From assembly GCF_009363095.1 (NCBI RefSeq), contig NZ_CP045295.1:5609001-5673000 (forward strand): 64,000 nt of DNA. Direction: 5' to 3'. Shown one piece after another: positions 29,024-50,698 of the stretch. The stretch comes from Paenibacillus cellulositrophicus. GTDB lineage: Bacteria > Bacillota > Bacilli > Paenibacillales > Paenibacillaceae. Both the position numbers and the translations under genes were made by a program. Every line of letters starts with the position of its first letter. Positions within the stretch are counted from its first letter, which is position 1. The notes beneath the pieces were generated by a model that had not been told where the DNA came from, ran no database searches, and saw only the letters and a list, made by a program, of their open reading frames with translations.

Positions 29024-29075
29024 CCGAAGAGCTATGGCCCGGGCCGACCGGGCATTTAGGGATGGGGTGTATGTA

Positions 29076-31949: not shown

Positions 31950-31952
31950 CTC

Positions 31953-32852: not shown

Positions 32853-32951
32853 CCTGGTTTTATTTATGGAATGAAGCGATCCATTACATGGCCATGGAAT
32901 GCCGTAATGAGGCGTTTTAATGGAATAGATGACATGAGGAGAGGTGGATTC

Positions 32952-35687
32952 ATGAAGAAACATCGAATCAAACGTTCCATACTGCTGATGCTCGCGCTTG
33001 TTCTCGTATTGGCCCCTTTATCGCTCGGCACACGCCCGGGTCTGGCCAGTGCGGAGCAGGAGTCGGCCGGCCCGCTATCTGAAGGCCGCATGGGAACAGC
33101 CGGAACGAGCGATGCGGCAGCAAGCGTTCCGGTAAGCATCTCAAAAGATTTTGAGGACGGGACGCTTCAAGGCTGGTACGGGCGGGGCGGCAACGAAGTC
33201 CTGACGGTTTCCCCGAATGCAGCCCATACGGGATCTTACGGCATGCAGGTCACCGGTAGAACCCAGGGCTGGAACGGCCCGCAGCTCGACGTGACCCCAA
33301 TCATGGAAACGGGAAAGACGTACCATTTATCGGCTTGGGTCAAGCTGCCTGCCGGCACGGCAAGCTCGCCGGTATCGATTGTGGTCCAACGCACGACGGA
33401 TGGCGCCAATGCCTATGAACTCGTCAAATCGGTCCAGGCGAGCGACAGCGGATGGGTCAAGCTCAGCGGAGAATATACCTTGCAACACCCGATTGAAAGC
33501 CTAGCCGTTTATATCGAATCCTTCGATGTTCCGACGCTTGATTTTTACGTGGACGATGTCGTGATTGAGCGCGCTCCGGATCCGGTTCCGATCGAGATTC
33601 AGAAGGACATTCCGAGCCTGAAGGACGTGTTTGCCGGCCAATTCAAGCTGGGGACGGCTGTGCTGGTCAATGAAATCCAGAATCCGAACAGCCCTGATGC
33701 GGAGCTGGTCCGGAAGCATTTCAACAGCCTGACGGCCGGCAACGAGCTGAAATGGGACGCCACCGAGCCCGCGGAGGGTCAATTCAATTTTACGGCAGCC
33801 GATAAAATTGTAAGCTTTGCCACGGAAAACGGGATCGCCATGCGGGGCCACACGCTCATCTGGCATTCTCAGACGCCGAAATGGGTGTTTTACGACAGTG
33901 ACGGCAACCTCGCCAGCAAGGAGCTTCTATATGCGCGGATGAAAAAGCATATCGATACCGTCGTCGGCCGGTACAAGGGGAAAATTTACGCTTGGGACGT
34001 TGTAAACGAGGTCATTGAGCCCGGCGATCAGAAACCGGGGGGCCTCCGCAACAGCTTATGGTATCAAATTGCAGGCGAGGAATTCATTGAGAAGGCGTTC
34101 ATTTATGCACATGAAGCCGATCCGGACGCCAAGCTGTTCATCAACGATTACAACACGAATGATCCCGTGAAACGGCAATTTCTGCATGATCTGATTAAGC
34201 GTCTGAAAGCCAAGGGGATTCCGGTTGACGGAGTCGGCCACCAGACGCATATCGGGATCGAATATCCCCGGGTGCAGGAATTGGATGATATGATTCAGGC
34301 GTTCCGGGATCTAGACATCGATCAGCAAATCACCGAACTGGACATGAGCATCTATACGAATGACACGGAGGCCTATGAGACGTTCCCAGCCGAGCTGCAA
34401 ATCAAGCAGGCTAACCGCTACAGAGAGATCTTCGACGTATTCAGGAAGCATTCGGATCAGCTCAGTGCCGTCATATTCTGGGGCAAGGATGACCTGAACA
34501 CCTGGCTGCGCACGTTCCCGGTCGTTCGCAACAATTGGCCGCTGCTGTTCGATGAACGGCTGCAAGCCAAATACGCATACTGGGCGCTCGTCGATCCGGC
34601 GAAGGTTCCGGTTGAAACGAAGCGCACGAAAGCTCTGGAGGCCAGCGTGAAGATTGACGGCCAGGCGGAAGCGGTATGGAATGTGGCGCAGGCGGTACCG
34701 ATCCAGACAGGCGGCAAAGCGGCAGCGACATATAAGACATTATGGGGCGCAGGACATCTATACCTATGGGTCGATGTCGATGATGCCACAGTCAACGGCA
34801 ATGATTCCGTCGAAGTGTACATTGACGGCAATAACGGCAAAACGAATGCTTATGAAGCGGACGACAAAAAGTATACGTTTCGGCGCAGCGGCGCGAATCC
34901 GCATAAACCGGCCGAGTATAACGTGGTGAAAACGGAGAAGGGATACCGGATCGAAGCCTCGATCCCGGTCGACGGTGCGCAAACCGGAAAGGAAATCGGC
35001 TTTGACGTCCGTATTCGCGACCGGTCTGGTTCAGCGGAAGAGCTGGCGTCCTGGAACGATATTCATCACAGGCAGGATACGGATACGTCCGGGTTTGGCG
35101 TATTGACGATGGTGGAAGGTCCGCGAACCGCCAAAGCTGTAAAAGGAACGGCGGTCATCGACGGAGACATCGATGACATTTGGAACAAGGCCGAGCAGAT
35201 CGTAACCGACCGCTGGGTCAGCGGATCTTCGGGCTCAACGGCCAAAGTTCGAACGCTTTGGGACGATCACCGTCTGTACGTGCTGGCCGAGGTGACCGAC
35301 TCTCTGGTGACCAAGCGGAGCGCCAATGCGTGGGAGCAGGATTCGGTTGAAATTTTCATCGATCAGAACAACGCACGAGCCGCTTCTTATGACAGCGACG
35401 ACGGGCAGTATCGTGTGAACTTCGATAACGAGCCGTCGGTCAGCCCCGGATCGCTCGGCGCCAATTTGACATCCGCCGCGAAGCGGACCCCGACCGGCTA
35501 CATCATTGAGGCCGCTGTCGATTGGCTCGGAACACCTCCAAAGGCGGGCAGCCTCATCGGGTTTGACGTGCAGGTCAATAATGACGGAAACGACGACGGG
35601 GTTCGCGACAGCGTGGCGATCTGGAATGATACGTCGGACAGAACGTGGCAAAACCTGTCTAACATCGGACTGTTAACATTGGAATAA
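32952..35687 (+). CDS. Secreted multidomain GH10 endo-beta-1,4-xylanase
   Basis: A 911-residue enzyme starting at ATG 32952 behind AGGAGAGGTGG; earlier in-frame ATGs lack such a site. Signal peptide (about 1-37), a CBM4/9/22-type domain (about 55-205), the GH10 barrel (about 215-560) with acid/base E353 in WDVVNEVI and nucleophile E462 in ITELDMS, then two tandem CBM9-like domains (about 565-730 and 735-911), each opening with an ID-G-x-D/A-x-x-W-type strand and containing DSVEVYID or DSVEIFID. There are no S-layer homology repeats, so it should be released. It hydrolyses the xylan backbone outside the cell and so generates substrate for the neighbouring importers. Confidence 0.94.
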   Translation: MKKHRIKRSILLMLALVLVLAPLSLGTRPGLASAEQESAGPLSEGRMGTAGTSDAAASVPVSISKDFEDGTLQGWYGRGGNEVLTVSPNAAHTGSYGMQVTGRTQGWNGPQLDVTPIMETGKTYHLSAWVKLPAGTASSPVSIVVQRTTDGANAYELVKSVQASDSGWVKLSGEYTLQHPIESLAVYIESFDVPTLDFYVDDVVIERAPDPVPIEIQKDIPSLKDVFAGQFKLGTAVLVNEIQNPNSPDAELVRKHFNSLTAGNELKWDATEPAEGQFNFTAADKIVSFATENGIAMRGHTLIWHSQTPKWVFYDSDGNLASKELLYARMKKHIDTVVGRYKGKIYAWDVVNEVIEPGDQKPGGLRNSLWYQIAGEEFIEKAFIYAHEADPDAKLFINDYNTNDPVKRQFLHDLIKRLKAKGIPVDGVGHQTHIGIEYPRVQELDDMIQAFRDLDIDQQITELDMSIYTNDTEAYETFPAELQIKQANRYREIFDVFRKHSDQLSAVIFWGKDDLNTWLRTFPVVRNNWPLLFDERLQAKYAYWALVDPAKVPVETKRTKALEASVKIDGQAEAVWNVAQAVPIQTGGKAAATYKTLWGAGHLYLWVDVDDATVNGNDSVEVYIDGNNGKTNAYEADDKKYTFRRSGANPHKPAEYNVVKTEKGYRIEASIPVDGAQTGKEIGFDVRIRDRSGSAEELASWNDIHHRQDTDTSGFGVLTMVEGPRTAKAVKGTAVIDGDIDDIWNKAEQIVTDRWVSGSSGSTAKVRTLWDDHRLYVLAEVTDSLVTKRSANAWEQDSVEIFIDQNNARAASYDSDDGQYRVNFDNEPSVSPGSLGANLTSAAKRTPTGYIIEAAVDWLGTPPKAGSLIGFDVQVNNDGNDDGVRDSVAIWNDTSDRTWQNLSNIGLLTLE

Positions 35688-36861: not shown

Positions 36862-38256
36862 ATGCGTATGGGAAAAATGATGCTGCTGCTCTGCACACTG
36901 TTACTTGTGCTTTCGGCGTGCAGCAGCGGCGGCTCCAAAAGTGGGTCAAGCGCCGGTACGGCGGAGACGAATACGGAGACGGGTACCGAGACTGCTGCAA
37001 CCAACACCGACAATAAAGGTGCGGAAGAGAAGGATGCGGAGCAAACGTACAAGACGCCTGACATGGATTTCGACATGGGCGGAAGAACGATCAAGGTCGT
37101 ATCGTGGTGGGATATGACGATTCCGGAGGATAACCCGGATAACATCCAGCGCAAAAAAAATCTGGAGGAGCTGGAGAAGAAGCATAATTTCAAAATGGAA
37201 TACGTCGCGATCGATTACGGCGAATACCAGCAAAAAGTGACGGCTTCCCTGTTGGCCGGCGAACCGCTTGGCGACATCGTCAGATTGGGCAAAACCTACA
37301 CGATTCCGGCACTTGTGAAACAGGACTTGTTGTGGCCCATCGATGAGTATACGAAAAATCCGGTAGCCTTTAACCAAAGTGTGACCAATCAATACATGCA
37401 ATATAACGGTAGGGGTTACGGTTTTTCGGAAGGGCAGGGCAACAATGTCATGGGTATTTTTTACAACCGGACGCTCATGAGCAAGCTTGGCTTGAAGTCG
37501 CTTCAAGATTATGTCAATGAAGACAGCTGGAATTGGGATACGTTTTTGCAAGTGGCCAAAGAAGCCAACAAGGATACGAACAATGACGGCAAGCTTGACT
37601 CTTGGGGGCTCGCTAACCCGGCGCCGCTCGAATTTGCGCTTGCTTCCAACGAAACGAGCTTGACGAAGGATAACAAGCAAAACCTGGAAGATCCGAAAAC
37701 GACCGAAGCGCTTAATTTTATTTCCAAGATTGCGACCGAAAAAGTGGCCAGACCAACGGAAGGCGGCGACTGGACGGAGCCGGGCCAATTTTTCCGCCAA
37801 GGCAACACATTGATGTACACGGGAGCGCTCTACGAACTTAGCGGTTTCAAGAAGGATATGCCTGACGCGGATATCGGATTTGTGCCATTCCCTAAAGGGC
37901 CAAGTGCAAGCTCGTACCACTCTTACGAAGGCCTCTATCAATCCTTGTTCATTCCTAAGGCTGTAAAGGATCCGGATAAGCTGCTCTATATTTGGGAGAA
38001 AATCAACGACATCGATTCGATGTATGACTATCCGGACCAGGCTTCCTATGAGACCTCGTTTACGGACGAAAACGACATTAACAATGCGAAGGAAGTCGCC
38101 GCCAATTTGATTGTCCTCGACCACTTCACATTCCCGAACTTGAAGTTCTATGATTTCCTCGGCGAAATCACCAGTGGAACCTCGGTGTCTACTGTGGTGG
38201 AAAAGTACAAAGCGCCGTTCCAGGCAGCCATTAATGAGGTCTACGGATCGAAATAA
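36862..38256 (+). CDS. Extracellular solute-binding lipoprotein, first gene of the large operon
   Basis: A 464-residue binding protein (GGGGGGATTAGAGGA before the ATG). The lipobox LSAC gives a lipidated cysteine at about residue 20, followed by a Ser/Gly/Thr linker. Shared blocks along the whole length with the orphan binding protein at 16898 (FDMGGRTIK, EDNPDNI, GGDWTEPGQFFRQGNTLMY, TVVEKYKAPFQAAINEV) show a recent duplication. A Ca-loop-like DTNNDGKLDSWG is present. A long stem-loop at 38275 separates it from the fusion binding protein and permeases downstream, which would allow more of this protein than of the membrane parts. Confidence 0.93.
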   Translation: MRMGKMMLLLCTLLLVLSACSSGGSKSGSSAGTAETNTETGTETAATNTDNKGAEEKDAEQTYKTPDMDFDMGGRTIKVVSWWDMTIPEDNPDNIQRKKNLEELEKKHNFKMEYVAIDYGEYQQKVTASLLAGEPLGDIVRLGKTYTIPALVKQDLLWPIDEYTKNPVAFNQSVTNQYMQYNGRGYGFSEGQGNNVMGIFYNRTLMSKLGLKSLQDYVNEDSWNWDTFLQVAKEANKDTNNDGKLDSWGLANPAPLEFALASNETSLTKDNKQNLEDPKTTEALNFISKIATEKVARPTEGGDWTEPGQFFRQGNTLMYTGALYELSGFKKDMPDADIGFVPFPKGPSASSYHSYEGLYQSLFIPKAVKDPDKLLYIWEKINDIDSMYDYPDQASYETSFTDENDINNAKEVAANLIVLDHFTFPNLKFYDFLGEITSGTSVSTVVEKYKAPFQAAINEVYGSK

Positions 38257-38274
38257 TTTCACATGTTGAAGCAG

Positions 38275-38316
38275 CAGTCCCTATTAGAAATTTTTTTCTA
38301 ACGGGGACTGTTATTG
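38275..38316 (+). terminator. Stem-loop, partial terminator within the large operon
   Basis: CAGTCCC..TTAGAAA (38275-38290) pairs with TTTCTAA.cGGGGACTG (ending 38310), followed by TTATTG. The T-run is weak, so partial readthrough into the gene at 38351 is expected. This is the second binding-protein gene in the window with such a stem directly after it (compare 7239-7268). Confidence 0.6.
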
Positions 38317-38350
38317 ACATGACATGTCTCTTGCTTCAGGAGGGAGAAGC

Positions 38351-41233
38351 GTGAACAACCGAAAGAAGAGCTACGTCGCTGTCCTGCTCGTCCTTGCCAT
38401 ACTGGTGTCCATTTGGGCATTCTACCCTTCCGGTTCATCCGAAGTGCGGAGCGTTCAAGCCATGGCCGATTTTGCGGCTGTTACGGGATCGGGCGGAGAT
38501 GACGGCGGCTACGATGCATATGTGAAAGCCCATTCGGATGCTAAGCGCCCGGATCAGGTTATCCGGGTCGAGGGCGAGAGCTTTACCCAAACCGACGGGC
38601 CGGGATTCGAGGTTGTCCATCCGTCAGGGGAAACCGCCGTCCTCACGCCGGAGTCGGGTTCCATCAGCTGGAACGTGCCCATCGAACAAGCGGGCCTGTA
38701 CAACATCCGAATCCGGTATTTGCCGGTTGAAGGCAAAAGTTCCGCGATCGAACGCGGATTGACGATCAATCAACAGCTGCCCTTTAAGGGCGCCGACCTG
38801 GTTACGTTTGACCGGGTCTGGGGCAACCGGGACGACAAGATCGGTCGCGATGACAGAGGGAACGATCTGCGTCCGAGTCAGGTAGAGAAGCCGATCTGGC
38901 AGCTCGAATCCGTCACCGACCGCAGCGGTTATTATGACGAACCCTATTTGTTCTATTTTGACAAAGGCAATCAAAGCGTGACCTTGACGGCATTGCGTGA
39001 GCCTATGGCCATCGATTATATCGAGCTGTACCAGGAAGAAGCATTAAAGACATACGCAGAAATCAAGAGCGATTATTCAACCGAAGGGCTGCAGCCGGTC
39101 AAAGACCAATACACCCTGATTCAGGCAGAGGATGCGGTGTATAAGTCCTCTCCGACCTTGTACCCGGTTTCTGACAGATCGAGCCCGACGGTTATTCCAT
39201 ACGATGTGTCCAAAATTCGGATCAACACGATCGGAGGGCTGAACTGGAAGCTGCCCGGACAATGGATCGAGTGGGAATTCGAAGCGCAGGAGGACGGCTT
39301 GTACCAGATCGCTTTAAAAGAGAAGCAGGATCAGCTGCGCGGCGTCTTCGCCACGCGAAGCCTGACGATTGACGGAAAGGTTCCGTTCAAGGAGATGAAG
39401 CGGATTCCTTTTGAATTCGGCAGGGACTGGAGCATGTACGTCTTGGGAGAGGATGAGCCGTACCTGTTTCATTTGACCCAAGGCAAGCACCGGATTCGCA
39501 TGACGGTTTCCCTTGGCGAGCTGGCCCCGCTGATCCAGACGATCGAGTCAAGCGTGCTGCAGCTGAACGAAATGTACCGCAAAATTTTGATGATCACGTC
39601 CAATTCGCCCGATCCGTACCGGGACTACCAATTGGAGAAGCGGATCCCGGAAATGGCGGAGGTATTCCGCAAACAAGCCGAAACGATCCAGAGCGTGGCC
39701 GATTACCTGGAACAAACGACAGGCGAGCAGAGCGACAAGGTGGCCATTTTGCACACGATGGTCAAGCAGCTCCAAGAGATGGCCAAACGGCCGGATACGG
39801 TTGCGAACCGTTTGGAGGCCTTCAAGACCAACGTCGGCGGCTTGGGTACATGGATTCTGACCGTCCGGGAACAGCCGCTTACGCTGGATTATCTGGTCGT
39901 TTCCTCGCCGGATCATAAGCTGCCGAGAGCGGACGCGTCGTTTCTGCAAGTGGTGAAGCATGAAGCCGGGTCGCTCACCGCTTCTTATACCGAAGATTAC
40001 GACAGCATCGGCAATACCGGCAAGCAGAAGCGGTCGACGACGGTTTGGATTACGACGGGACGGGATCAGGCGCAGGTGTTGAAAAACCTGATCGATGATT
40101 CGTTTACCCCGAAATCGGACATTTCGGTCAATCTGAAGCTCGTACCCGCCAACATCCTTCTGCCCGCGACGCTCGCCGGGGAAGGGCCGGACGTGGCCAT
40201 GCAGATCGGCGAAGACGTGCCCGTGAACTATGCCATGCGGGGGGCGGCTGCCGATTTGTCGAAATTTGCCGATTATAACGAAGTCGCATCCCGCTTTCGC
40301 GACAGCGGATTGGTGCCTTACGAATATGACGGGGGCGTCTACGCGCTGCCGGAGCAGCAGTCGTTCCCGATGCTCTTTTACCGCAAGGATATCCTGAAGG
40401 AGCTTAACCTGGAGCCGCCCCAAACGTGGCAGGATATTTACAACATGATTTCGGTTCTGCAGAAGCACAACATGGAATTTTATCTGCCGATCGAGGCCGC
40501 CAACGCGAGCCTGGTGCCGAACCCGACGTTCTCCATGCTGCTGTACCAGAACGGCGGCGAATTCTACCGGAACGGGGGCAGAAAGAGCGCGCTGGATTCC
40601 GAAATCTCCATGGATGCCTTCAAGAAATGGACGCAGTTCTATACGAGCTACAAGTTCCCGCTGCTGGCCGACTTTCCGAACCGGTTCCGGACCGGCGAAA
40701 TGCCGATCGGCATCGCGGATTATACGACGTACAACATGCTGACCGTCCTCGCGCCGGAAATCAAGGGGCTCTGGGAATTTACCATGGTACCCGGCACGGA
40801 GAAGAACGGCACGATCCATCATGAAGTGGCGAGCCACACGACCGGCGTGATGATGCTAGAGGGCGCACGGGATCAAGAGGCGGCTTGGGAGTTCATGAAA
40901 TGGTGGACGGATAAGGATACCCAAATCGCATACGGCCGCGAGATGGAAGGGCTGATGGGCGAGGCTGCCCGTTATCCGACAGCTAACGTCGAGGCGCTCG
41001 AGGAGCTGCCTTGGCCGGTTAAAGACTATCGTAATTTGGAGAATCAGTGGAAATGGGTCCGGGGGATCCCGCAGGTTCCGGGCGGCTATTTTACCGGCCG
41101 GCATCTGGACAACGCATTCCGCAAAGTCGTCAACGCCAGCGAGAATCCCCGCGAGGCTTTGTCGGATTATCTCTTGTACATCAATGACGAAATTGCGGTC
41201 AAGCGGAAGGAATTCAATTTACCTGAACAGTAA
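38351..41233 (+). CDS. Very large membrane-anchored binding-protein fusion (960 residues)
   Basis: The GTG at 38351 follows AGGAGGGAG; an upstream in-frame ATG at 38324 lacks a site. A single N-terminal membrane segment (about 8-27) without a lipobox cysteine should anchor it outside. Two related beta-rich modules follow (about 60-245, opening VIRVEGESF, and 255-400, opening LIQAEDAVY), resembling CBM-like sandwiches. A helical linker (about 405-510) and another beta region lead to a periplasmic-binding-protein-type domain (about 580-950, with YALPEQQSFPMLFYRKDIL). At about twice normal length it may combine polymer capture with delivery to the permeases that follow 12 bases later. Confidence 0.85.
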   Translation: MNNRKKSYVAVLLVLAILVSIWAFYPSGSSEVRSVQAMADFAAVTGSGGDDGGYDAYVKAHSDAKRPDQVIRVEGESFTQTDGPGFEVVHPSGETAVLTPESGSISWNVPIEQAGLYNIRIRYLPVEGKSSAIERGLTINQQLPFKGADLVTFDRVWGNRDDKIGRDDRGNDLRPSQVEKPIWQLESVTDRSGYYDEPYLFYFDKGNQSVTLTALREPMAIDYIELYQEEALKTYAEIKSDYSTEGLQPVKDQYTLIQAEDAVYKSSPTLYPVSDRSSPTVIPYDVSKIRINTIGGLNWKLPGQWIEWEFEAQEDGLYQIALKEKQDQLRGVFATRSLTIDGKVPFKEMKRIPFEFGRDWSMYVLGEDEPYLFHLTQGKHRIRMTVSLGELAPLIQTIESSVLQLNEMYRKILMITSNSPDPYRDYQLEKRIPEMAEVFRKQAETIQSVADYLEQTTGEQSDKVAILHTMVKQLQEMAKRPDTVANRLEAFKTNVGGLGTWILTVREQPLTLDYLVVSSPDHKLPRADASFLQVVKHEAGSLTASYTEDYDSIGNTGKQKRSTTVWITTGRDQAQVLKNLIDDSFTPKSDISVNLKLVPANILLPATLAGEGPDVAMQIGEDVPVNYAMRGAAADLSKFADYNEVASRFRDSGLVPYEYDGGVYALPEQQSFPMLFYRKDILKELNLEPPQTWQDIYNMISVLQKHNMEFYLPIEAANASLVPNPTFSMLLYQNGGEFYRNGGRKSALDSEISMDAFKKWTQFYTSYKFPLLADFPNRFRTGEMPIGIADYTTYNMLTVLAPEIKGLWEFTMVPGTEKNGTIHHEVASHTTGVMMLEGARDQEAAWEFMKWWTDKDTQIAYGREMEGLMGEAARYPTANVEALEELPWPVKDYRNLENQWKWVRGIPQVPGGYFTGRHLDNAFRKVVNASENPREALSDYLLYINDEIAVKRKEFNLPEQ

Positions 41234-41245
41234 GGGGGGAATCGG

Positions 41246-42205
41246 ATGCAAGCCGAAACAACCAGCCCGCCCGCCGTTTCGAGCCTCGTGCAGCCGAAAA
41301 AGCAGTCGCGGCTGGCCAACGTTTGGAGAGAGCTGAAGAAAAACAAGCATTATTACATCCTGATGAGTCCGTACATGCTGATCTTTTTTGCCTTTACGGT
41401 GGTTCCGGTCGTTTTCTCGATCGTTCTGAGCTTCTTTTATTTCAATATGCTGGAATTCCCCCGGTTTGTCGGGTGGCAGAACTACTCCAGATTGTTTTTG
41501 AATGATGACGTCTTTATGATCGCTTTGAAAAATACGCTGCTGTTTGCGGTCATTTGCGGACCAATCAGCTACATTGCCTGCTTTCTGTTTGCATGGATTA
41601 TCAATGAGCTGTCCCCGAAGGTCCGCGCGTTGATGACGCTTGTTTTCTATGCGCCATCGATTTCCGGCAACGTTTTCTTTATTTGGCTCATTATTTTTTC
41701 AGGCGACAGATACGGCTATTTGAACGGCTTTTTAATTAAATTCGGCTTTATGCTGGAACCGATTCAATGGCTGACGAACGAGAAGTACATTTTGCCGATC
41801 ATCATGATCGTCCAGCTGTGGCTCAGCCTGGGCACCAGCTTCCTGGCTTTTATTGCGGGCCTGCAGACGATCGACAAGTCCCTGATTGAAGCAGGAGCGA
41901 TCGACGGCATCCGCAACCGCTGGCAGGAGCTATGGTTCATTACGCTGCCGTCCATGAGGCCGCAGTTGATGTTCGGCGCGGTTATGCAGATCACCAGCTC
42001 GTTTGCGGTGGCCGATATCTCGGTGGCGCTCGCCGGTTTTCCCAGCGTCAACTACGCGGGACATACGATCGTCACGCACTTGATGGATTACGGAACGATC
42101 CGCTTTGAAATGGGGTATGCGTCCGCGATTGCGACGGTGCTGTTCGCCATGATGCTCGGTGCCAACAAATTGACGCAGCGATTGCTCAGAAAGGTAGGGG
42201 AGTGA
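41246..42205 (+). CDS. Sugar ABC transporter permease (CUT1, MalF-like), first pair
   Basis: A 319-residue inner-membrane protein with about six membrane segments (first at about 37-60) and a variant EAA loop LIEAGAIDGIRNRWQELWFITLPSM near residue 212. AAGGGGGG precedes the ATG. It partners with the permease starting at 42210. The EAA loop departs from the usual EAASIDGAG more than those of other permeases in the window, which may reflect an unusual ATPase interface or simply divergence. Confidence 0.92.
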   Translation: MQAETTSPPAVSSLVQPKKQSRLANVWRELKKNKHYYILMSPYMLIFFAFTVVPVVFSIVLSFFYFNMLEFPRFVGWQNYSRLFLNDDVFMIALKNTLLFAVICGPISYIACFLFAWIINELSPKVRALMTLVFYAPSISGNVFFIWLIIFSGDRYGYLNGFLIKFGFMLEPIQWLTNEKYILPIIMIVQLWLSLGTSFLAFIAGLQTIDKSLIEAGAIDGIRNRWQELWFITLPSMRPQLMFGAVMQITSSFAVADISVALAGFPSVNYAGHTIVTHLMDYGTIRFEMGYASAIATVLFAMMLGANKLTQRLLRKVGE

Positions 42206-42209
42206 TTTG

Positions 42210-43082
42210 GTGACGAGAATGATGGCCGCCTTTCGCATGCCGAGAAGGCTGAACCGCTCTTTTACCGTCAGCTTTATGCTGTTTGCGTTCCTGGCCGTAT
42301 TCGGCGCATTCATGGCGCTGCCGCTGATCTACGCCGTTAATAATGCTTTTAAACCGCTGAACGAACTGTTTCTGTTTCCGCCGCGTTTCTTCGTGAACAA
42401 TCCGACGATGGACAACTTTTACGATCTGGTGGCGTTAATGGGAAATTCCTGGGTTCCGCTGTCACGGTATATCGTGAACACACTCTTCATTACGATTGTA
42501 GGGACCATCGGCCATATCCTGCTGTCGTCCGCCGCGGCCTATCCGCTGGCAAAATACCGTTTTCCCGGGTCCAAGATCCTGTTCTCGATCGTCGTCATGT
42601 CCTTGATGTTTTCCGGGCATGTTACGGCGATTCCCAACTATATGGTGATGTCTTGGCTCGGCTGGATCAATACGCACGCATCGATTATCGTCCCGTCGCT
42701 TGCGTTCCCGTTAGGCTTATTCCTGATGAAGCAGTTCATGGAGCAGATTCCGGATGCCCTGCTGGAAGCGGCCAAAATCGACGGGGCGAACGAATACCGG
42801 ATTTATTGGACGATCGTCATGCCCAATGTGAAGCCTGCTTGGCTAACGTTGATGATTTTGCAGTTTCCGATGCTCTGGGGCTCAGACGGAGGCAATTTCA
42901 TTTACAGCGAGAACCTCAAGACGCTTCACTACGCCTTAGGCCAAATCACCGCGGGCGGGATTGCCCGTGCCGGCGTGGGAGCTGCCGTCGCGCTGATTCT
43001 GATGGTCGTGCCGATTACACTCTTTATCATTTCGCAGAGCAACGTCCTTCAGACGATGGCGACCTCCGGAATGAAAGAATAG
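42210..43082 (+). CDS. Carbohydrate ABC transporter permease (CUT1, MalG-like), first pair
   Basis: A 290-residue inner-membrane protein. The GTG at 42210 has GGGGAG seven bases upstream; TTG at 42207 is an adjacent alternative. The EAA loop LLEAAKIDGANEYRIYWTIVMPNV lies near residue 187, with about six membrane segments. It starts four bases after the stop of its partner. It is followed not by another importer part but by the exported NHL-repeat protein. Confidence 0.93.
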   Translation: MTRMMAAFRMPRRLNRSFTVSFMLFAFLAVFGAFMALPLIYAVNNAFKPLNELFLFPPRFFVNNPTMDNFYDLVALMGNSWVPLSRYIVNTLFITIVGTIGHILLSSAAAYPLAKYRFPGSKILFSIVVMSLMFSGHVTAIPNYMVMSWLGWINTHASIIVPSLAFPLGLFLMKQFMEQIPDALLEAAKIDGANEYRIYWTIVMPNVKPAWLTLMILQFPMLWGSDGGNFIYSENLKTLHYALGQITAGGIARAGVGAAVALILMVVPITLFIISQSNVLQTMATSGMKE

Positions 43083-43098
43083 AGGGGAGACTAGCACG

Positions 43099-44565
43099 AT
43101 GCGAATGAGCATACCGAAAGTGAAAAAGTACCTCCTGGTGGCTGCCCTCTGCTGCCTGCTGGGGACGAGTATAGGCGTAAATGCGGCTCACGCCGAAGGC
43201 AGCGCCTCCTACAACTATTCCTTCTGGAATGACACGACGCCGGCTCCTGCCGCATATGAGGCCACGTCCTTGTTGAACGGCGCGCAGCTTGGCGTGGGCC
43301 CCTTCAAAAACCCGAGCGACATCCACGTAACGGCCGACAAAGAGATTTACGTGCTCGATTCCGGCAACAACCGCATCATCGTCCTCGACGAGCATTTTAA
43401 GCCGGTTAAGGTGGTGGATTCCTTTGACCACAAGGGGAAAAAAGATACGTTCAATAACCCGCAAGGGATCTTCGTGACCGACCGGAAGGAGCTGTTTATC
43501 GCCGATACGGGCAATAAACGGGTGGTTCATCTGGATTCAAACTTAAGGGTGGCGGGGGTGCTTGAAGCGCCGAAGTCCGACCTGCTGCAGGCCAATTTCG
43601 ATTTTCAGCCGGTTCGGGTAGTTGTTGACACGGCGCAGCGGATCTACGTCATGTCGACCGGCGTATTTGACGGTTTTATGGAATTCAATCCGGACGGGGC
43701 GTTCACCTCGTTCATCGGCGCTAACCGGGTGACGGTTGATCCGGTGGAGCTGTTCTGGAAAAGGATGTCTACGCAGGCGCAGCGGAGCCAAATGGTGATG
43801 TTCACACCTACCGAATTCACGAATCTGGATATGGATGACGAAGGCTTCATTTACGCAACAAGCGGTGACTACTCGAATAATCCGATCAAAAAGCTGAACG
43901 CTCAGGGCAACGATATTCTCCGGCGGACGGGATATCTCAGCCTGATGGGGGATATCCGGTATTCAAAAGATGTCGGCCCTTCACGGCTCATCGATATCGA
44001 TGTCACCGACAGCGAAATGTATTCGGTCCTCGACTCCAAGCGGGGCAGAATCTTCACTTACAGCGGGGATGGACATTTGATGTACATATTCGGCGGCTTG
44101 GGCAACCAAATGGGCCAATTTAACACTCCCGCGGCGATTGAACGGGTCGGGGACGATTTTCTTGTGCTGGATAAGGCATTCGGCGAGATAACGGTATTTC
44201 AGACAACAGCGTACGGCCGGATGTTGAACGAAGCGGTCCGGAGCTACTACAGGGGCGATGAGGAAAAGGCGTTTGATCTCTATCAACAGGCGATCAATAT
44301 GAATGCGAACCTGGAATTTGCTTATTCCGGCGTGGGCAAGGCCCTCCTTCGGAAAGGGGACTACAAAGGGGCTATGCAGTATTTCAAGGAAAGCTATGAT
44401 CAAGCCAATTATTCAAAGGCGTACCTGCTTTACCGCAAAGAGGTGATGAGAGAATACTTCCCGGCAGTCATGACCGGATTGATCGTGCTTGCCGCAGCTC
44501 TCCTGCTCTTCAAAAAGCTCCGGAAGCGGATGAGGAGACAAGGAGGTGTTACGATTGAATCGTGA
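43099..44565 (+). CDS. Exported NHL-repeat/TPR membrane-anchored protein
   Basis: A 488-residue protein with a signal peptide (about 1-32, ending NAAHA), a beta-propeller of NHL type (about 60-370, recurring IYVLDSGNNRIIVLD, LFIADTGNKRVVHLD, FLVLDKAFGEITVF), a short TPR-like helical region (about 375-440, FDLYQQAINMNANLEFAYSGVGKALLRKGDYKGAM) and a C-terminal membrane segment (about 453-472) with a basic tail. The topology puts propeller and TPR outside the cell with the C-terminus inside. NHL and TPR domains usually mediate protein binding, so a scaffold for surface complexes is a reasonable guess. The gene overlaps the Yip1-like gene by 11 bases. Confidence 0.82.
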   Translation: MRMSIPKVKKYLLVAALCCLLGTSIGVNAAHAEGSASYNYSFWNDTTPAPAAYEATSLLNGAQLGVGPFKNPSDIHVTADKEIYVLDSGNNRIIVLDEHFKPVKVVDSFDHKGKKDTFNNPQGIFVTDRKELFIADTGNKRVVHLDSNLRVAGVLEAPKSDLLQANFDFQPVRVVVDTAQRIYVMSTGVFDGFMEFNPDGAFTSFIGANRVTVDPVELFWKRMSTQAQRSQMVMFTPTEFTNLDMDDEGFIYATSGDYSNNPIKKLNAQGNDILRRTGYLSLMGDIRYSKDVGPSRLIDIDVTDSEMYSVLDSKRGRIFTYSGDGHLMYIFGGLGNQMGQFNTPAAIERVGDDFLVLDKAFGEITVFQTTAYGRMLNEAVRSYYRGDEEKAFDLYQQAINMNANLEFAYSGVGKALLRKGDYKGAMQYFKESYDQANYSKAYLLYRKEVMREYFPAVMTGLIVLAAALLLFKKLRKRMRRQGGVTIES

Positions 44566-45181
44566 GCTCGTAAAATACCCGTTTTATCTCATCGTGCATC
44601 CGTTTAACGCCTATTGGGACCTGAAATACGAACGAAACAAGCGGCACATGCTGATCGCTTCCTTGATCATTTTGTTTTTGATGATCATCACCAATGTCCT
44701 TAGCAACCAGTACAGCGGCTTCCTGGTCAAAATCACCAATCCGGATGATATGAACAGCCTGATGGAAGTAGTGTACATCGTTGTCCCGGTCTTGTTCTGG
44801 TGCGTGGCCAACTGGTCGCTGACGACGCTCATGGACGGCGAAGGGAAGTTCGTTGACATTTTTACATCGACGTGCTTTGCCCTCGTTCCGATGATGATTA
44901 TCAACTTCCCGTGGATCTGGCTCAGCAATGTCATATCGCTGCAGGAGACGGCGTTTTATAACTTCTGCAGCACCGCGGCCTTCCTCTGGTCGGCGTATCT
45001 TTTGTTCGTCGGCAACATGACCGTGCATCAATACTCGCCGTCGAAAACCATCGGGACGATCCTCCTGACGATCGTGGCGATGGGCTTTATGGCTTTTATC
45101 TGCCTGCTGTTTTTCGGACTGATTCAGCAGATGATTTCGTTCGTTCACGTCATTTATCAGGAAATCATGCTGAGAAACTAA
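44555..45181 (+). CDS. Yip1-family integral membrane protein
   Basis: A 208-residue protein. The TTG at 44555 lies eight bases after AAGGAGG; a GTG at 44546 overlaps that site. Five or so hydrophobic segments (about 27-45, 62-85, 98-125, 135-155, 165-195) and the N-terminal LVKYPFYLIVHPFNAYWDLKYE motif match bacterial Yip1-domain proteins. Function is not established for these. Its tight coupling to the NHL protein and position between that and the DUF5696 lipoprotein suggest that the three form a membrane complex with the importer. Confidence 0.8.
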   Translation: MNRELVKYPFYLIVHPFNAYWDLKYERNKRHMLIASLIILFLMIITNVLSNQYSGFLVKITNPDDMNSLMEVVYIVVPVLFWCVANWSLTTLMDGEGKFVDIFTSTCFALVPMMIINFPWIWLSNVISLQETAFYNFCSTAAFLWSAYLLFVGNMTVHQYSPSKTIGTILLTIVAMGFMAFICLLFFGLIQQMISFVHVIYQEIMLRN

Positions 45182-45198
45182 AGAAAGGAGGAGAAACC

Positions 45199-47754
45199 AT
45201 GCGCAAAGCCAGAATCGCCCTGTGGCTCCCGGTACTGATCGCGGGGATCGCGCTAGCCGGCTGTGCCGATTCGAACGCCGCCCGCTCCGGGGCCAATGAT
45301 GCACCGGCTGCAGCCCAATTCACCAAGGGCCAGCCTTTGAAGGCGGCTTTCACCGACGCCCGCGCAGCCGGCATGAAAGGCGTAGCCGAAAATGAACGAC
45401 TGCGGCTGTTCGTGGATGAGAGTACGGGCGCTATCGCTGTGTTAAATAAGGAAACCGGAGAGACGTGGTACAGCAACCCGCCGGAGCAGGGCAAGGACCC
45501 GCTCGCCTCGGGGGTGAACAAAGCCAACCTTTCTTCCCAGCTCAAGATCGATTATTACAACAATTTCGGCCAGGTGAATTCCATCAATACGTTCACGGAC
45601 AGCGTCTCGCATAAGCAGATCAAATTCGAACCGATCCCAAGCGGGGTAAGGGTCACGTACCAGTTCGGAACCGCCGTGAAGTCGGCGGCCGATTTGCCGA
45701 TGATGCTCAGCAGCGAGCGGATCGAGGCGATGCTGGGCAAGCTGGACAAAACGGGTCAGCGGGCTCTGAAAATCGCCTATAAAGAAGATCCGGATAAAAA
45801 GGTCTATGTCCGTAACGACAGCGCCTTAAATGGACTGCAGCTCGATCGCGCCTTCAAGGCATTTGACGATGCCGGATATACCGAAGAGGACCTCATGAAG
45901 GACATGGAGGAGCTGCATTTTACACAGGAGAAGCCGGAACCTCGGATATTCCTCGCATCGATCGAATATGCTCTGGACGGCGGCAGCCTAGTCGCCAAAA
46001 TCCCTTCATCCGGTATTCAATATCCGAGCGCATATCCGATCGGGAATATTTCCTTCCTCAGTTTTTTTGGCGCCGGCAGTTCCAAGGAGAAGGGGGCGAT
46101 CTTCGTGCCGGACGGATCCGGTGCGCTCATCCACTTCAACAACGGGAAAAAGCAGTATCCCGCTTACCAGCAGCCGGTGTACGGGGAAGACCTGACGATG
46201 AAGACGACCGAGGATGCCAAGACCGAGCAGGCGGTCCGGCTGCCGGTGTTCGGCATCATCCGGGAAAGCGGCGCGATCCTCGGCATTATCGAGGAAGGCG
46301 CATCGGCTGCGGCCATTCATGCCGATATCAGCGGAAAGCTGAACAGCTATAACTATGTATATCCCAGCTTCAATGTCATGAACAAAGGAGAAGTGACACT
46401 GCAAGCGAACGGCCAGGAGCGTACGCTCCCCAGGTTCCAGGAACAGGCGATGAAAACGGATTTTACGGTCCGGTACGCGTTCCTGAACAAAGAGGAGGCT
46501 TCTTACCAAGGCTTGGCCCGCTACTACCAGCGTTATTTGGAGCAGCATGGAGGTCTCCCTAAGCCAGAAGAGGCTGCCGCAGGTACGACAGATACGCCGT
46601 TCTACCTGCAGCTGGTCGGCGGCATCGCCAAAGAAAAGCATGTCGCCGGCATTCCTTACCGGACGATCGAGCCTCTCACGACGTTCGAACAGTCGGAGGA
46701 TATCATCAACCAGATGAAGAGCCGCGACATCTCCAACATCAAACTGAAATTTTCGGGCTGGTTTAATGGCGGATTGGATCATGAGGTTCCGGATCATATT
46801 TCGGTCGATAAGGCGGTCGGCGGCAGCAATGGTTTGCGGGGATTCTTATCGTTCACGCAGGATCAAAGGGTTTCTTTCTTTCCGGATGTTGCCGTTTTGA
46901 CCGCGAATACGGGAAAGGGATTCAACGAGAACGCGAATGCTGCGAGAACGCTGAGAGGCGTTCCTGCCGCTCTCTACCCGCTGGATCAGGCGCTCAATCG
47001 GAGGGACCGGGATAAGCCGCCTTCTTATGTTGTATCACCTCGGCTTACTGTTCCCTATACCAAGTCGGTGCTGGAGAGCTTGAAGGGGTATCAGACCGGC
47101 GGCATTTCACTCCGGGATCTCGCCGATCAGCTCAACAGCGATTACCGCAAGCACAATCAACTGGATCGCACGCAGTCCGAGAAACTATCGGTTCAGGCGC
47201 TGGGCAGCATCTCGCAGCAAAATTTGAAGGTCATGGCGGACGGCGGCAACGCTTATGCGCTTCCATTCTTGTCGGATATTACGAACGCACCGATGTCCGG
47301 CAGCCGATTCAAGATCGAGGACGAAGAGATCCCATTCTATCAAATGGTCATTCGGGGGTCCGTCGACTACACGGGAAGCCCGTTTAACTTGTCAACCTAT
47401 ACGGATGAACGGCAGTATATCCTGAGATGCCTCGAATACGGAGCGGGCGTGTACTTCGAATGGATCCATGAACCGAATGACAAAGTAAAGGATACGGATT
47501 ATAACGACTTGTATGCCGTCCATTACAAGCAGTGGATCGACCAGGCTGCCGAAATGTACCGCGAGGTGAACGATGTGCTGAAGAACGTCCGGAACGAGCC
47601 GATCACGGGCCATGAGAAGCTTGGCGAAGGCGTGTTCAAGACCGTGTACGGGAACGGCATATACGTCATTGTGAACTATAACCGTACGGATGTGACGGTG
47701 GACGGCCAAACGGTGAAAGCCGAGAGCTATTTGACGGGTGGTGTGCAATCTTGA
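45199..47754 (+). CDS. DUF5696-type lipoprotein, possibly glycosidase-like
   Basis: An 851-residue protein; AAAGGAGGAGAAACC precedes the ATG. Lipobox LAGC (cysteine at about 22) marks it as surface lipoprotein. An N-terminal beta-sandwich-like part (about 55-430, beginning LRLFVDESTGAIAVLNKETGETW) is followed by a probable alpha/beta barrel (about 435-780; NIKLKFSGWFNGGLDHE, AGVYFEWIHEPND) and a small C-terminal beta domain. The order recalls clan-D-like glycoside hydrolases, though no catalytic residue can be assigned with confidence. It overlaps the following permease by an in-phase TTGA. The DUF5696 name is from memory of the family; a profile search would settle it. Confidence 0.75.
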   Translation: MRKARIALWLPVLIAGIALAGCADSNAARSGANDAPAAAQFTKGQPLKAAFTDARAAGMKGVAENERLRLFVDESTGAIAVLNKETGETWYSNPPEQGKDPLASGVNKANLSSQLKIDYYNNFGQVNSINTFTDSVSHKQIKFEPIPSGVRVTYQFGTAVKSAADLPMMLSSERIEAMLGKLDKTGQRALKIAYKEDPDKKVYVRNDSALNGLQLDRAFKAFDDAGYTEEDLMKDMEELHFTQEKPEPRIFLASIEYALDGGSLVAKIPSSGIQYPSAYPIGNISFLSFFGAGSSKEKGAIFVPDGSGALIHFNNGKKQYPAYQQPVYGEDLTMKTTEDAKTEQAVRLPVFGIIRESGAILGIIEEGASAAAIHADISGKLNSYNYVYPSFNVMNKGEVTLQANGQERTLPRFQEQAMKTDFTVRYAFLNKEEASYQGLARYYQRYLEQHGGLPKPEEAAAGTTDTPFYLQLVGGIAKEKHVAGIPYRTIEPLTTFEQSEDIINQMKSRDISNIKLKFSGWFNGGLDHEVPDHISVDKAVGGSNGLRGFLSFTQDQRVSFFPDVAVLTANTGKGFNENANAARTLRGVPAALYPLDQALNRRDRDKPPSYVVSPRLTVPYTKSVLESLKGYQTGGISLRDLADQLNSDYRKHNQLDRTQSEKLSVQALGSISQQNLKVMADGGNAYALPFLSDITNAPMSGSRFKIEDEEIPFYQMVIRGSVDYTGSPFNLSTYTDERQYILRCLEYGAGVYFEWIHEPNDKVKDTDYNDLYAVHYKQWIDQAAEMYREVNDVLKNVRNEPITGHEKLGEGVFKTVYGNGIYVIVNYNRTDVTVDGQTVKAESYLTGGVQS

Positions 47755-48659
47755 AGTCGATCATGAAAATCGGCGCGAAGCGGCGGACGTACGCCGAACA
47801 GAAGGCGCTTTGGGGTTTTATCTACGTTTTGCCGTGGCTGCTCGGATTCCTTCTCTTTTTCCTGATACCCTTAATTTCCTCATTAAGGTACAGCTTCAGC
47901 TCCATCGAAGCCAATGCTAACGGCATGAACATCAGCTTTATCGGCATCTCCAATTACGTGGAAGCCCTTACGGTCAATACGAGCTTTAACCGTACGCTGA
48001 CGACCTCGATCGTAAACATGGTCATCAACGTGCCGCTCATTGTGATCTTCAGCCTGTTTTTGGCTGTACTGCTGAACCAAAGGTTTGTCGGCAGAGCCAT
48101 TGCCAGATCGATCTTTTTCCTTCCGGTCATCCTGGCGTCTGGAGTCATTGCGAATTTGGAGACGTCCAGCCTCGTTCAGGCTATCAATGAGCAGAACGCC
48201 GGCGGTGCCGTGAGCGGCCTGGGGACCAGCGAGCTGACGCGGATCATGGTCAATTCCGGTGTCAGCGATAACATCGTCGCGTACCTGACGAGCGCCGTGG
48301 ATCGCATCTACCAGATCGTCAGCCAGTCGGGCGTGCAAATTCTGATCTTCCTGGCAGGGATCCAGTCGGTATCCCCCCAGCTGTATGAGGCATCCAAGAT
48401 CGAGGGAGCGACCGGTTACGAAGCGTTTTGGAAAATCACGCTGCCCATGGTCAGTCCGCTCATCCTGGTCAACGTGATTTATACGGTGATCGACTCGTTC
48501 TCCCGGAGCGAAATGACGACACTGATCAGGGAAACGGGATTTACAAATTTCAATTTCGGCCTCAGCTCAGCGATGGCCTGGATTTACTTCCTGGCGATCA
48601 TGGTTATTTTGCTAATTATTACGTTTTTCATTTCCAAAAGAATTTTCTATCAAGAATAG
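47751..48659 (+). CDS. Sugar ABC transporter permease (CUT1, MalF-like), second pair
   Basis: A 302-residue inner-membrane protein with a TTG start overlapping the stop of the preceding lipoprotein gene (TTGA). GGGTGGTG acts as the ribosome site. It has about six membrane segments and an EAA loop LYEASKIEGATGYEAFWKITLPMV near residue 212. This is the second MalF-like subunit of the same operon. Confidence 0.93.
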   Translation: MKSIMKIGAKRRTYAEQKALWGFIYVLPWLLGFLLFFLIPLISSLRYSFSSIEANANGMNISFIGISNYVEALTVNTSFNRTLTTSIVNMVINVPLIVIFSLFLAVLLNQRFVGRAIARSIFFLPVILASGVIANLETSSLVQAINEQNAGGAVSGLGTSELTRIMVNSGVSDNIVAYLTSAVDRIYQIVSQSGVQILIFLAGIQSVSPQLYEASKIEGATGYEAFWKITLPMVSPLILVNVIYTVIDSFSRSEMTTLIRETGFTNFNFGLSSAMAWIYFLAIMVILLIITFFISKRIFYQE

Positions 48660-48676
48660 AAGGAGCGTGAGCAGCG

Positions 48677-49624
48677 TTGATCATCGCCCGTTTGTTGTCG
48701 CTCGAAAGCTGGAAGCGCTGGCTGTGGACCGTCGTGCGGCTGGTCCTGATGGCAGGACTGTCGTTTGTCATTCTGTACCCCATTCTTCAAAAGATTTCAA
48801 CGGCCATCAAGGATAAGAGCGACCTGTATTCGCCGATCGTCGTCTTTATCCCGGAGCATTATTCGCTGGACAATTTCAAAAAAGCCATCTCGATCATGGA
48901 CTATTGGCACACGCTGTTCAATACGTTTACGTTATCGGCCATGACGACGATCCTGACGGCCGTGTCCTGCGCGTTTGCAGGCTACGCTTTCGCGCGGCTT
49001 AAATTCAAAGGCAGCAATTTGCTCTTTGGAGGTGTCATCCTGACCATTCTGGTGCCGCCAACGACCATTCTGATACCGATCTACATGAATTTGAAGGATT
49101 TCAGCCTCATGGGGCTGATCCCGCTGCTGACCGGGAAGTCGGTGAACCTGCTGGATTCGTACTGGCCCTTCTTTCTAACCTCAGTCACCGCAAACTCGCT
49201 GAAGGCGGGTCTGTACATTTTTATTTTCAGGCAGTTTTTCCGGGGTATCCCGAAAGAAGTGGAAGAGGCGGCTTATATCGATGGGGCGGGCGTAAGCAAA
49301 ACTTTTATGCGCATCATGCTCCCGAATGCCGTTCCGGCCATCGTTACCGTGCTGTTGTTTTCGTTCGTATGGCAGTGGAATGACAGCTTCTTTACGACAA
49401 CGTATTTAACGTCGGGCAAAGTGATGTCCACCCAACTGGCGTCGCTGCCGCACAACCTCTCCATCATGCTCGAGGGCGGGGTTGCGACCAACAAGGATCC
49501 TTTCTATATGAGCATGGTCCAGGATACCGGCATATTGCTGGCGATCCTGCCGCTGATCATTATTTATTTGTTCGTGCAGCGTTACTTTGTGGAAAGCATC
49601 GAACGGACCGGCATCGTCGGGTAA
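48677..49624 (+). CDS. Carbohydrate ABC transporter permease (CUT1, MalG-like), second pair
   Basis: A 315-residue inner-membrane protein, TTG start at 48677 after AAGGAGCG. EAA loop VEEAAYIDGAGVSKTFMRIMLPNA near residue 198, about six membrane segments, C-terminal FVQRYFVESIERTGIVG. It closes an operon of nine genes (36862-49624), and a symmetrical terminator follows at 49651. Confidence 0.93.
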   Translation: MIIARLLSLESWKRWLWTVVRLVLMAGLSFVILYPILQKISTAIKDKSDLYSPIVVFIPEHYSLDNFKKAISIMDYWHTLFNTFTLSAMTTILTAVSCAFAGYAFARLKFKGSNLLFGGVILTILVPPTTILIPIYMNLKDFSLMGLIPLLTGKSVNLLDSYWPFFLTSVTANSLKAGLYIFIFRQFFRGIPKEVEEAAYIDGAGVSKTFMRIMLPNAVPAIVTVLLFSFVWQWNDSFFTTTYLTSGKVMSTQLASLPHNLSIMLEGGVATNKDPFYMSMVQDTGILLAILPLIIIYLFVQRYFVESIERTGIVG

Positions 49625-49650
49625 GGTTGGGTTATGGTATTAACAAAAAA

Positions 49651-49744: not shown

Positions 49745-50521
49745 TCAAGGCCGTAAATCACCCGATTGCCGGTACTCACGAGGCGTGCAGCCCACAATAC
49801 GCCGGAATTGTCTGGAGAAATGCTCGACATTTTTGTATCCGCACAGCTCGCTGATATCAGCGATTCGGAGCGATCCGTGGATCAACCTTTCCTTGGCGAG
49901 GCGGATCCTGCACTGGATAACGTCGTCCATGCAGGAAATCCCGAAAGTCGCCTTATACAGCGTTTGCAGGTACCCGGGGCTCAAGTGAACGTCATCGGCC
50001 ATGGAAGGGACGCTCCATTCAGCGCCGGGACGGTTATGGATCGCCTTGCGCAGATTCAGCAGTTTCTGGTAATGCGGCGAATTTTCCTTGGATTGAAAAG
50101 CTTCGAGCAGCTTGTTGAACAAGATCCGAAACAGGTAGTCGATCGAGAGCTCCCGGTAATCGCAGCTGAAAAAATTTTCGGTGGCCAGAAGCTGAAACAG
50201 CTGGCGGCAGTACCCGGGATCCGGGACCGGAATCGGAACGCCCTGCGGAAGTGTTGTTTCCAAAACGTAGGATTCGTCCGTCTCGAAACGGACCCAGTCA
50301 TTCACAAATTGGCCTGAGCAGGCGCGGTACATAATCTTTTGCTGAGGGGGAAAGAGAACGGCACAGTTTGCCGAATACTCCCGGATTTCTCCTTGAACCC
50401 AGAACTCGGCCGGCGTTTGCGTAAGAATCAGCAGCCAAAAATCATGTCCTTCCGGAATGTCATAAATAAAGTCTCCGGGATGGGCAGCATCATATCCGAC
50501 ATAGTAAATGGATGTCGTCAT
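49745..50521 (-). CDS. AraC-family transcriptional regulator
   Basis: A 258-residue regulator; ATG at 50521 has GGAG six bases upstream, while a TTG at 50533 overlaps that site. The N-terminal sensing domain is about 1-150 and the C-terminal HTH pair about 155-255 (MADDVHLSPGYLQTLY, ISELCGYKNVEHFSRQF). Its sequence tracks that of the regulator at 4487-5251 throughout (shared RACxxQFxNDWxRFE, SPGYLQ, CGYxNVEHFxRQF), so the two are paralogues probably sensing related sugars. It is divergent from the GH43 operon at 50699. Confidence 0.92.
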   Translation of the reverse strand: MTTSIYYVGYDAAHPGDFIYDIPEGHDFWLLILTQTPAEFWVQGEIREYSANCAVLFPPQQKIMYRACSGQFVNDWVRFETDESYVLETTLPQGVPIPVPDPGYCRQLFQLLATENFFSCDYRELSIDYLFRILFNKLLEAFQSKENSPHYQKLLNLRKAIHNRPGAEWSVPSMADDVHLSPGYLQTLYKATFGISCMDDVIQCRIRLAKERLIHGSLRIADISELCGYKNVEHFSRQFRRIVGCTPREYRQSGDLRP

Positions 50522-50698
50522 CACGATCTCCAATCTTAGAATAGATCAAGTTTCTGTCAGCATAGATCATTCATTGCTGAGATGTCCTAATTTATAATTT
50601 CATAGTAAACCCAATATAAAGTCAATAGAATAATCAGAAATGGCGTTACTCCGTCAGCAAATCCGTATTTGAAATGATCAATAAAGGTGTGGCATGCC

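Follow-up and report, generated by a model that had tools for sequence, protein, structure and literature searches.

Why should a single operon bring together two pairs of sugar permeases, two solute-binding proteins (SBPs) and three further surface or membrane proteins? The question is raised by a stretch of 64,000 nucleotides from Paenibacillus cellulositrophicus (positions 5609001-5673000 of contig 1, NZ_CP045295.1, in a 7.42 Mb genome that we denote G000), referred to below as the window. The initial annotation of this DNA described a same-strand operon of nine genes at 36862-49624, and we found all nine open reading frames (ORFs) at these positions on the + strand. Pfam concurs, with matches to SBP_bac_1, to BPD_transp_1 in all four permeases, to NHL, to Yip1 and, at E 2.6e-222, to DUF5696. 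We call the genes A to I: A and B encode the SBPs, C/D and H/I the two permease pairs of MalF/MalG type, E a protein with NHL and tetratricopeptide (TPR)-like repeats, F a Yip1-domain membrane protein and G a DUF5696 lipoprotein. Our results suggest that this operon is probably a copy, linked to xylan, of a glycan-uptake core that is widespread in Bacillota and, it appears, has yet to be described; the core would consist of two importers with a shared ATPase, a G protein resembling glycoside hydrolase (GH) family 129 and the E/F pair.

Conservation of the core across Bacillota

Among 198 genomes of the order, 131 contain a match to the DUF5696 profile (PF18952), with 124 above the cut-off; for the phylum the figures are 46 of 398 genomes, with 39 above it. 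We compared 141 loci, all chosen for DUF5696: 40 hand-picked from the order, the best 80 of 587 relatives, 20 hand-picked from the phylum and the window itself. By the kinship recorded for them, 19 of the 20 phylum-level loci lie outside the window's class. The loci overlap, with 125 of 130 G proteins being distinct, and their ORFs were translated from the earliest start codon available, which makes some of them overlong. In 130 of the 141 loci the full core B-C-D-E-F-G-H-I forms a single run on a single strand, and eight of the 11 incomplete loci (L067, L102, L105, L114, L126, L135, L160 and L198) are truncated by contig ends. B is present in all 130 complete loci; 120 of the 141 loci have a same-strand SBP of A type, a count based on hidden Markov models that other SBPs may also match. 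Among the best 80 of 587 relatives, the nearest named locus is that of P. rhizosphaerae, whose G protein is 94% identical to the one in the window.

The second N-terminal domain of B was searched for over the identical 198 genomes of the order, this time without conditioning on a DUF5696 locus. Matches with E up to 1e-10 occur in 121 genomes, and these are exactly the 121 in which the best DUF5696 match has E < 1e-10. For the ten of the 131 DUF5696 genomes that fall outside this set, best E-values range from 1e-6 to 1e-3; the interval from 1e-6 down to 1e-87 is empty. In G000, E and near-full-length B give three matches each, every one adjoining one of the three DUF5696 genes, while the remaining 20 B matches span the SBP part only. 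In addition, E and F are fused into one protein in 34 of the 141 loci, which implies that the NHL/TPR part and the Yip1 part act as one unit. Genes B to I stay together as a core, the genomes that have B domain 2 are those that have G, and E and F form a pair. The proposal that the NHL, Yip1 and DUF5696 genes are kept beside the permeases is thereby borne out, and because the arrangement is conserved across the phylum, it goes beyond chance. Chance neighbourhood, or a local oddity of one genome, had been a candidate explanation; the full core in 130 of 141 loci and the matching 121 of 198 genomes rule it out.

Several individual loci deserve mention. G000 itself carries two extra core copies of the short type (C1:3208400-3228399 and C1:3014900-3034899; L077 and L078), one of them with a MalK-type ATPase gene before B. 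A complete nine-gene operon is present in L101, a record titled Bacillus subtilis DE0224, which may reflect a mislabelled genome, contamination or transfer. In L204 the complete B-I core is followed downstream (L204:14320-18488) by an Omp85/POTRA gene and by a gene that weakly matches S55 peptidases, which suggests that the system is also present in a lineage of Bacillota with two membranes.

Two modules within the operon

L190 and L196 contain E-F-G-H-I-A only, despite room for more genes. Their genomes hold further B genes, including the stand-alone B-C-D of L212 and L215, and also complete or near-complete operons (e.g. L218). In L199, L202 and L205 the order is swapped to E-F-G-H-I-B-C-D. 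On account of these split and swapped loci, the operon resolves into two modules, B-C-D and E-F-G-H-I with A. The affiliation of A follows from its position: it precedes B in those Paenibacillaceae loci that have it, but 10 of the 20 phylum-level loci carry it after I, as do the split L190 and L196, and L199 and L202 carry it ahead of E. These positions near the E-I block place A with E-I, and the gene order argues that A would serve H/I and B would serve C/D. In L189 and L191 several A-type binding-protein genes follow gene I in tandem.

The evolutionary distances between the proteins can be compared in 116 loci. All nine distance matrices correlate (r 0.82-0.96), and the highest partial correlations are those of E-G (0.58), C-D (0.48), B-D (0.48) and H-I (0.42), values from which relatedness is not fully removed. 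In the underlying identity tables, fused E-F proteins were split by length fraction.

The DUF5696 protein has a GH129-like fold

Against PDB sequences, the DUF5696 profile matches NagBb (E 6.5e-12) and DagB (E 4.2e-10), and a profile of the short type matches DagB at E 2.5e-11. The AlphaFold2 model of G, with a predicted local distance difference test (pLDDT) score of 87.9, matches DagB with Z 31.9 (4.0 A, 587 residues) and NagBb with Z 30.8; the next families follow at Z near 20. As in GH129, the model features a super-sandwich, a TIM barrel and a C-terminal sandwich. In structural prediction, then, G has a GH129-type hydrolase fold, and this assignment replaces the view of DUF5696 as a plain unknown. 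A Pfam GH129 search of 119 Bacillota genomes gave no match and was uninformative, its controls being equally silent.

The C-terminal half of DUF5696 alone has no GH match among PDB sequences, and the catalytic mapping therefore rests on residue counting. According to the accessible parts of PMC5698469, DagB needs four acids including Asp486, and of the two catalytic residues of NagBb only Asp435 is shared with DagB, as Asp486. An ungapped count from the last aligned residue, used in place of a residue-level structural alignment, leads from NagBb Asp435 to Asp640 of the window protein, a position occupied by Asp in 108 of the 110 long-type DUF5696 proteins. Asp648, Asp708 and Glu746 are likewise retained in 107-110 of these 110. 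Three places at which the aligned 5wzq chain differs from 5wzn are unconserved in DUF5696.

Binding proteins, permeases and energy source

The model of B (pLDDT 85.4) comprises two beta-sandwiches, a helical part and an SBP domain matching oligosaccharide-binding proteins. Since both sandwiches weakly resemble family 35 carbohydrate-binding modules (CBMs) and the SBP is of the oligosaccharide-binding type, B probably acts at the cell surface, keeping hold of a glycan and passing it on to C/D. Whole B searched against Pfam matches SBP families only.

Both SBPs and both permease pairs bear the hallmarks of CUT1 importers, the latter as BPD_transp_1 domains with EAA loops, while a usual CUT1 importer has one SBP and one permease pair and this operon has two of each. 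The EAA loop, the site of coupling to the ATPase, is kept by all four permeases: for each of them, at least 121 of 130 loci retain its Glu and at least 128 its Gly. The initial annotation had pointed out that a CUT1 importer needs an ATPase; none is encoded among the nine genes, and the need is likely met by a shared ATPase of MalK type. Such a gene adjoins B, within the operon, in six of the 11 short-type loci. G000 encodes two OB_MalK ATPases, one of which stands directly before B in the third DUF5696 cluster, whereas its permease domains number 150 or more, a figure obtained by scoring 150 of 350 candidates. A shared MsmX-type ATPase energizing both importers is the natural reading. That the missing ATPase marks a dead importer was considered too; it is unlikely, because the EAA loops are kept and MalK-type ATPases are present.

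Neighbouring enzymes and regulators change by clade

In the window the operon is flanked by GH10 and GH43 enzymes. Elsewhere the neighbours differ, and they follow the phylogeny of G: four enzyme classes (GH10/43; GH26/113/5; GH30; GH38/GH20-like) require four changes on the G tree over 72 labelled loci, as against a mean of 34.5 and a minimum of 28 in 1000 label shuffles. In this tree, built with FastTree, rows of the short type and of the phylum level sit on long branches. Labels were assigned by BLAST cluster, a single member of each cluster having been scanned against Pfam, and those of the window were set by hand; 58 of the 130 tree rows are unlabelled and left uncounted, partly for unscanned neighbours, and L095, a member of the xylan clade, is labelled mannan from opposite-strand genes of the GH5 cluster. 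Single scanned loci of the short type or phylum level have, each, GH32, GH16 with GH123, GH35/42, GH67 with GH3, alginate lyase, GH28, a GH106-like enzyme, an apiosidase-like enzyme or another GH26 gene.

Regulators follow the same pattern. An AraC-type gene lies upstream in 26 of 33 xylan-labelled loci (the other seven are without a labelled regulator), and a LacI- or GntR-type regulator accompanies 19 of 21 mannan, 9 of 10 GH38/20 and 5 of 9 GH30 loci, the rest again without a labelled one. Neighbouring enzymes and regulators change by clade. The ratio of between-class to within-class identity is lowest for A (0.48), followed by G (0.63), and highest for C (0.86).

Layout of the operon and its surroundings

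Coordinates are collected in Table 1. Adjacent genes of the operon overlap or are separated by 1-17 nt, except for A and B, which are 94 nt apart. The ORF of B opens at 38324; judging from the sequence, translation most likely starts at GTG 38351, which is preceded by a GGAGG-type site and yields 960 residues. A lipobox-like pattern is found in 101 of 116 A proteins and in only 57 of 130 G proteins. Genes for a MacB-like exporter (HlyD-type, FtsX/MacB-type and ABC ATPase) occupy 27929-32849 of the xylan region, between the GH43-CBM6 and GH10-CBM9 genes.

Table 1. Genes and signals of the operon and its neighbourhood (positions in the window)
Feature	Position	Strand	Basis
A: lipoprotein SBP (SBP_bac_1)	36862..38256	+	Pfam; lipobox LSAC from sequence
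B: N-terminal hydrophobic anchor/signal, two CBM35-like sandwiches, helical part, SBP domain, 960 aa	38351..41233	+	
C: MalF-type permease, importer 1, EAA loop EAGAIDG	41246..42205	+	
D: MalG-type permease, importer 1, EAA loop EAAKIDG	42207..43082	+	
E: exported NHL-repeat + TPR-like protein, C-terminal hydrophobic stretch	43099..44565	+	
F: Yip1-domain integral membrane protein	44546..45181	+	Pfam
G: DUF5696 lipoprotein, predicted GH129-like fold	45199..47754	+	Lipobox LAGC from sequence
H: MalF-type permease, importer 2, EAA loop EASKIEG	47751..48659	+	
I: MalG-type permease, importer 2, EAA loop EAAYIDG	48677..49624	+	
Strong RNA hairpin, A-B gap, 40-nt core	38273..38312	+	
Terminator-like stem, 11 pairs, operon end	49650-49675	both strands listed	Strongest of scan
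GH10 xylanase with CBM4_9 and CBM9 domains, neighbour	32871..35687	+	
Divergent regulator: response-regulator receiver domain + AraC-type helix-turn-helix	35815..36618	-	Pfam
AraC-type regulator, neighbour	49745..50533	-	
GH43, neighbour	50687-52513	+	
GH43 with beta-xylosidase C-terminal domain, neighbour	52531-54066	+	
GH10, neighbour	54298-55296	+	

A single terminator at the end of the operon had been proposed. The terminator-like stem is indeed there, among 17 such sites in the whole scan (16.9 in shuffles), but a strong hairpin between A and B had been overlooked. The stretch 38250-38330 folds at -30 kcal/mol (z -5.8), none of 200 shuffles being equally stable, and it lacks a clear U-tract. 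Promoter-like sites in the scan number seven, as against 13.7 in shuffles, and one of them, late in A (38125-38154), is a possible internal promoter in front of B. Strong folding of the A-B gap recurs: among 88 loci in which the stretch measures 60-330 nt, including 30 nt of the B ORF, z is below -2 in 61 and below -3 in 38, while 27 fall short of -2. Control stretches within B reached z < -3 in 0 of 131 cases, although, at 118 nt, they are unmatched to the gaps in length and composition. The gap sequences inspected differ between loci despite the recurrent folding. Such hairpins often hold expression of a binding-protein gene above that of the genes downstream, and the one described here perhaps stabilizes the A message or lowers B expression.

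A working model and its alternatives

Taken together, these results lead us to the following scheme for the xylan-associated copy. Secreted xylanases would release oligosaccharides, which B and A would capture. B with C/D and A with H/I would constitute two CUT1-type importers, both powered by one MalK/MsmX-type ATPase whose gene lies elsewhere. On the outer face, an anchored G may trim or hold the oligosaccharides freed by the neighbouring GH10/GH43 enzymes, and E/F could form an anchored scaffold, its propeller and TPR facing outwards and its Yip1 helices embedded in the membrane, by which G would be kept close to the importers. Once imported, the oligosaccharides would be finished by GH43 enzymes. 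A and G, which change fastest between enzyme classes, would set the substrate, with C and D as constant parts.

A number of observations weigh against this scheme or parts of it. Two genomes carry B-C-D and E-F-G-H-I-A at separate loci as well, L195 has a different ORF at the place of D, and some partial correlations cross the module boundary (F-H 0.37, B-G 0.35, B-H 0.31, A-F -0.31). The CBM35 matches of B are weak, at E 1.8e-4 for domain 2 against 5x7g (cycloisomaltooligosaccharide glucanotransferase, CITase) and E 0.12 for domain 1 against 2vzp (exo-glucosaminidase), the matched segments being what we take to be CBM35; Pfam on domain 2 finds CBM_6 in one of 16 members, weakly (E 0.21). Domain 2 also occurs outside B, with four matches for three B genes in G000 and 16 matches in G006, so that its presence in genomes agrees with that of DUF5696 and its copy number does not. 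As to G, Pfam GH129 has no match to it, hmmscan at E up to 0.01 returning DUF5696 only. The counted place of the second catalytic residue of NagBb, presumably Glu478, falls on Gly683 (98 of 110 long-type proteins) or Asn684 (110 of 110), this mapping being uncertain. For these two reasons we call G GH129-like, not GH129. In the short type, position 640 is Asp in 3 of 11 proteins and position 639 is Asp or Glu in 6 of 11. The scanned neighbours of L204 and L206 include no carbohydrate enzymes. Finally, further permease domains are present near the start of the window, and simple xylo-oligosaccharide uptake may thus not depend on the operon.

The features of G just listed invite the idea that G, E and F make up a non-catalytic assembly for sensing or binding, in which the hydrolase fold of DUF5696 has become a receptor for carbohydrate, signalling the presence of substrate or loading it onto the importers. 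The missing acid/base residue at the counted place, the poor conservation of the nucleophile position among short-type proteins and the absence of a Pfam GH129 match all fit it, as do the NHL and TPR repeats, which are known interaction parts. We nevertheless regard it as doubtful, since the long type keeps Asp640 together with Asp648, Asp708 and Glu746, and DagB, as reported in the accessible parts of PMC5698469, is active even though it lacks the second catalytic residue of NagBb.

A bolder proposal treats B-I as a single envelope machine, in which two permease pairs share one MsmX-type ATPase, the NHL/TPR-Yip1 part holds the CBM-bearing B and the GH129-like G, and captured glycan chains are fed into the cell stepwise. 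It would be a monoderm counterpart, serving for many glycans across Bacillota, of the 'selfish' Sus-type systems, with DUF5696 as a new GH family of clade-specific activities. The initial annotation, too, had envisaged one composite surface machine. The rearranged and split loci indicate two modules instead and leave the single machine unsupported and, in our judgement, unlikely. What endures of the earlier idea is that the additional surface proteins handle a glycan; DUF5696 with its GH129-like fold, B with domains weakly resembling CBM35 and the polysaccharidases that adjoin the operon clade by clade all lend it support.

The opposite extreme, two ordinary CUT1 importers that by accident lie in one operon with surface proteins foreign to them and form nothing composite, would agree with each importer being complete but for its ATPase and with B-C-D standing apart from E-F-G-H-I-A in two genomes. 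Yet B domain 2 and DUF5696 mark one identical set of 121 among 198 genomes, the core is whole in 130 of 141 loci with G identities as low as 23% (116 compared), and the E+F fusions and the correlated divergence of the nine proteins are hard to explain by chance, all of which makes this reading rather improbable. Lastly, an operon for the turnover or assembly of cell-surface glycans rather than for nutrition would suit the GH129-like fold, the NHL/TPR-Yip1 membrane protein and the neighbours of L204 and L206, but it is most improbable given permeases and SBPs of importer type and enzyme neighbours that, where identified, are mostly nutritional (GH10/43, GH26/113 and GH30; in single loci GH32, GH67, alginate lyase and GH28).

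The glycan-uptake core that we favour has several implications. Its enzyme partners point to xylan and mannan in many loci and to fructan, pectin and alginate in single ones. Because a set so constant and widespread includes a family, DUF5696, that is unnamed in the literature searched, part of glycan uptake in Bacillota appears to be uncharacterized. DUF5696 together with B may serve as a marker with which to locate polysaccharide loci and tentatively predict what they act on, and a family of hitherto no known function now has a testable enzyme fold. The core also poses the question of why one glycan system retains two permease pairs.

Comparison with known systems

At the level of a single protein, G resembles NagBb (5wzn) and DagB/ZgGH129 (5opq, 8rzk) in fold over the whole length (Z 30.8-31.9, 577-587 residues); it differs in sequence, at about 16% identity, and in being encoded in an ABC transporter operon. 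At the level of the transporter, the appropriate comparison is with CUT1 oligosaccharide importers, such as those of the MalEFGK2-like, XynEFG and LplABC types. The operon shares with them SBP_bac_1 SBPs, MalF/MalG-type permeases with EAA loops and probably a shared MalK-type ATPase, and departs from them in having two SBPs and two permease pairs, a constant E/F/G and a B protein with two CBM35-like domains. A parallel can also be drawn with the Sus-like loci of Bacteroidota, in which a constant capture and import core is combined with exchangeable enzymes and glycans are bound and processed at the surface. However, there is no SusC or SusD among the nine genes, which have ABC-type permeases instead, and the likeness is one of analogy only.

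A further related concept is that of the gram-positive polysaccharide utilization locus (gpPUL), a degrading enzyme, a transporter and a regulator in one locus, by the definition cited in the accessible part of PMC12827396. The window combines GH10/GH43 enzymes, importers and AraC-type regulators in just this way. DUF5696 is unnamed in the open-access literature searched. Nor was a description of the operon found there, including the accessible parts of PMC8106489, PMC6923384, PMC12827396, PMC10269863, PMC4867992 and PMC4765114; the initial annotation, too, knew of no characterized system with such a composition. The gpPUL is loosely defined, whereas here a fixed core of eight genes recurs beside differing enzymes; the core is an unusually conserved and apparently undescribed variant of the CUT1/gpPUL type.

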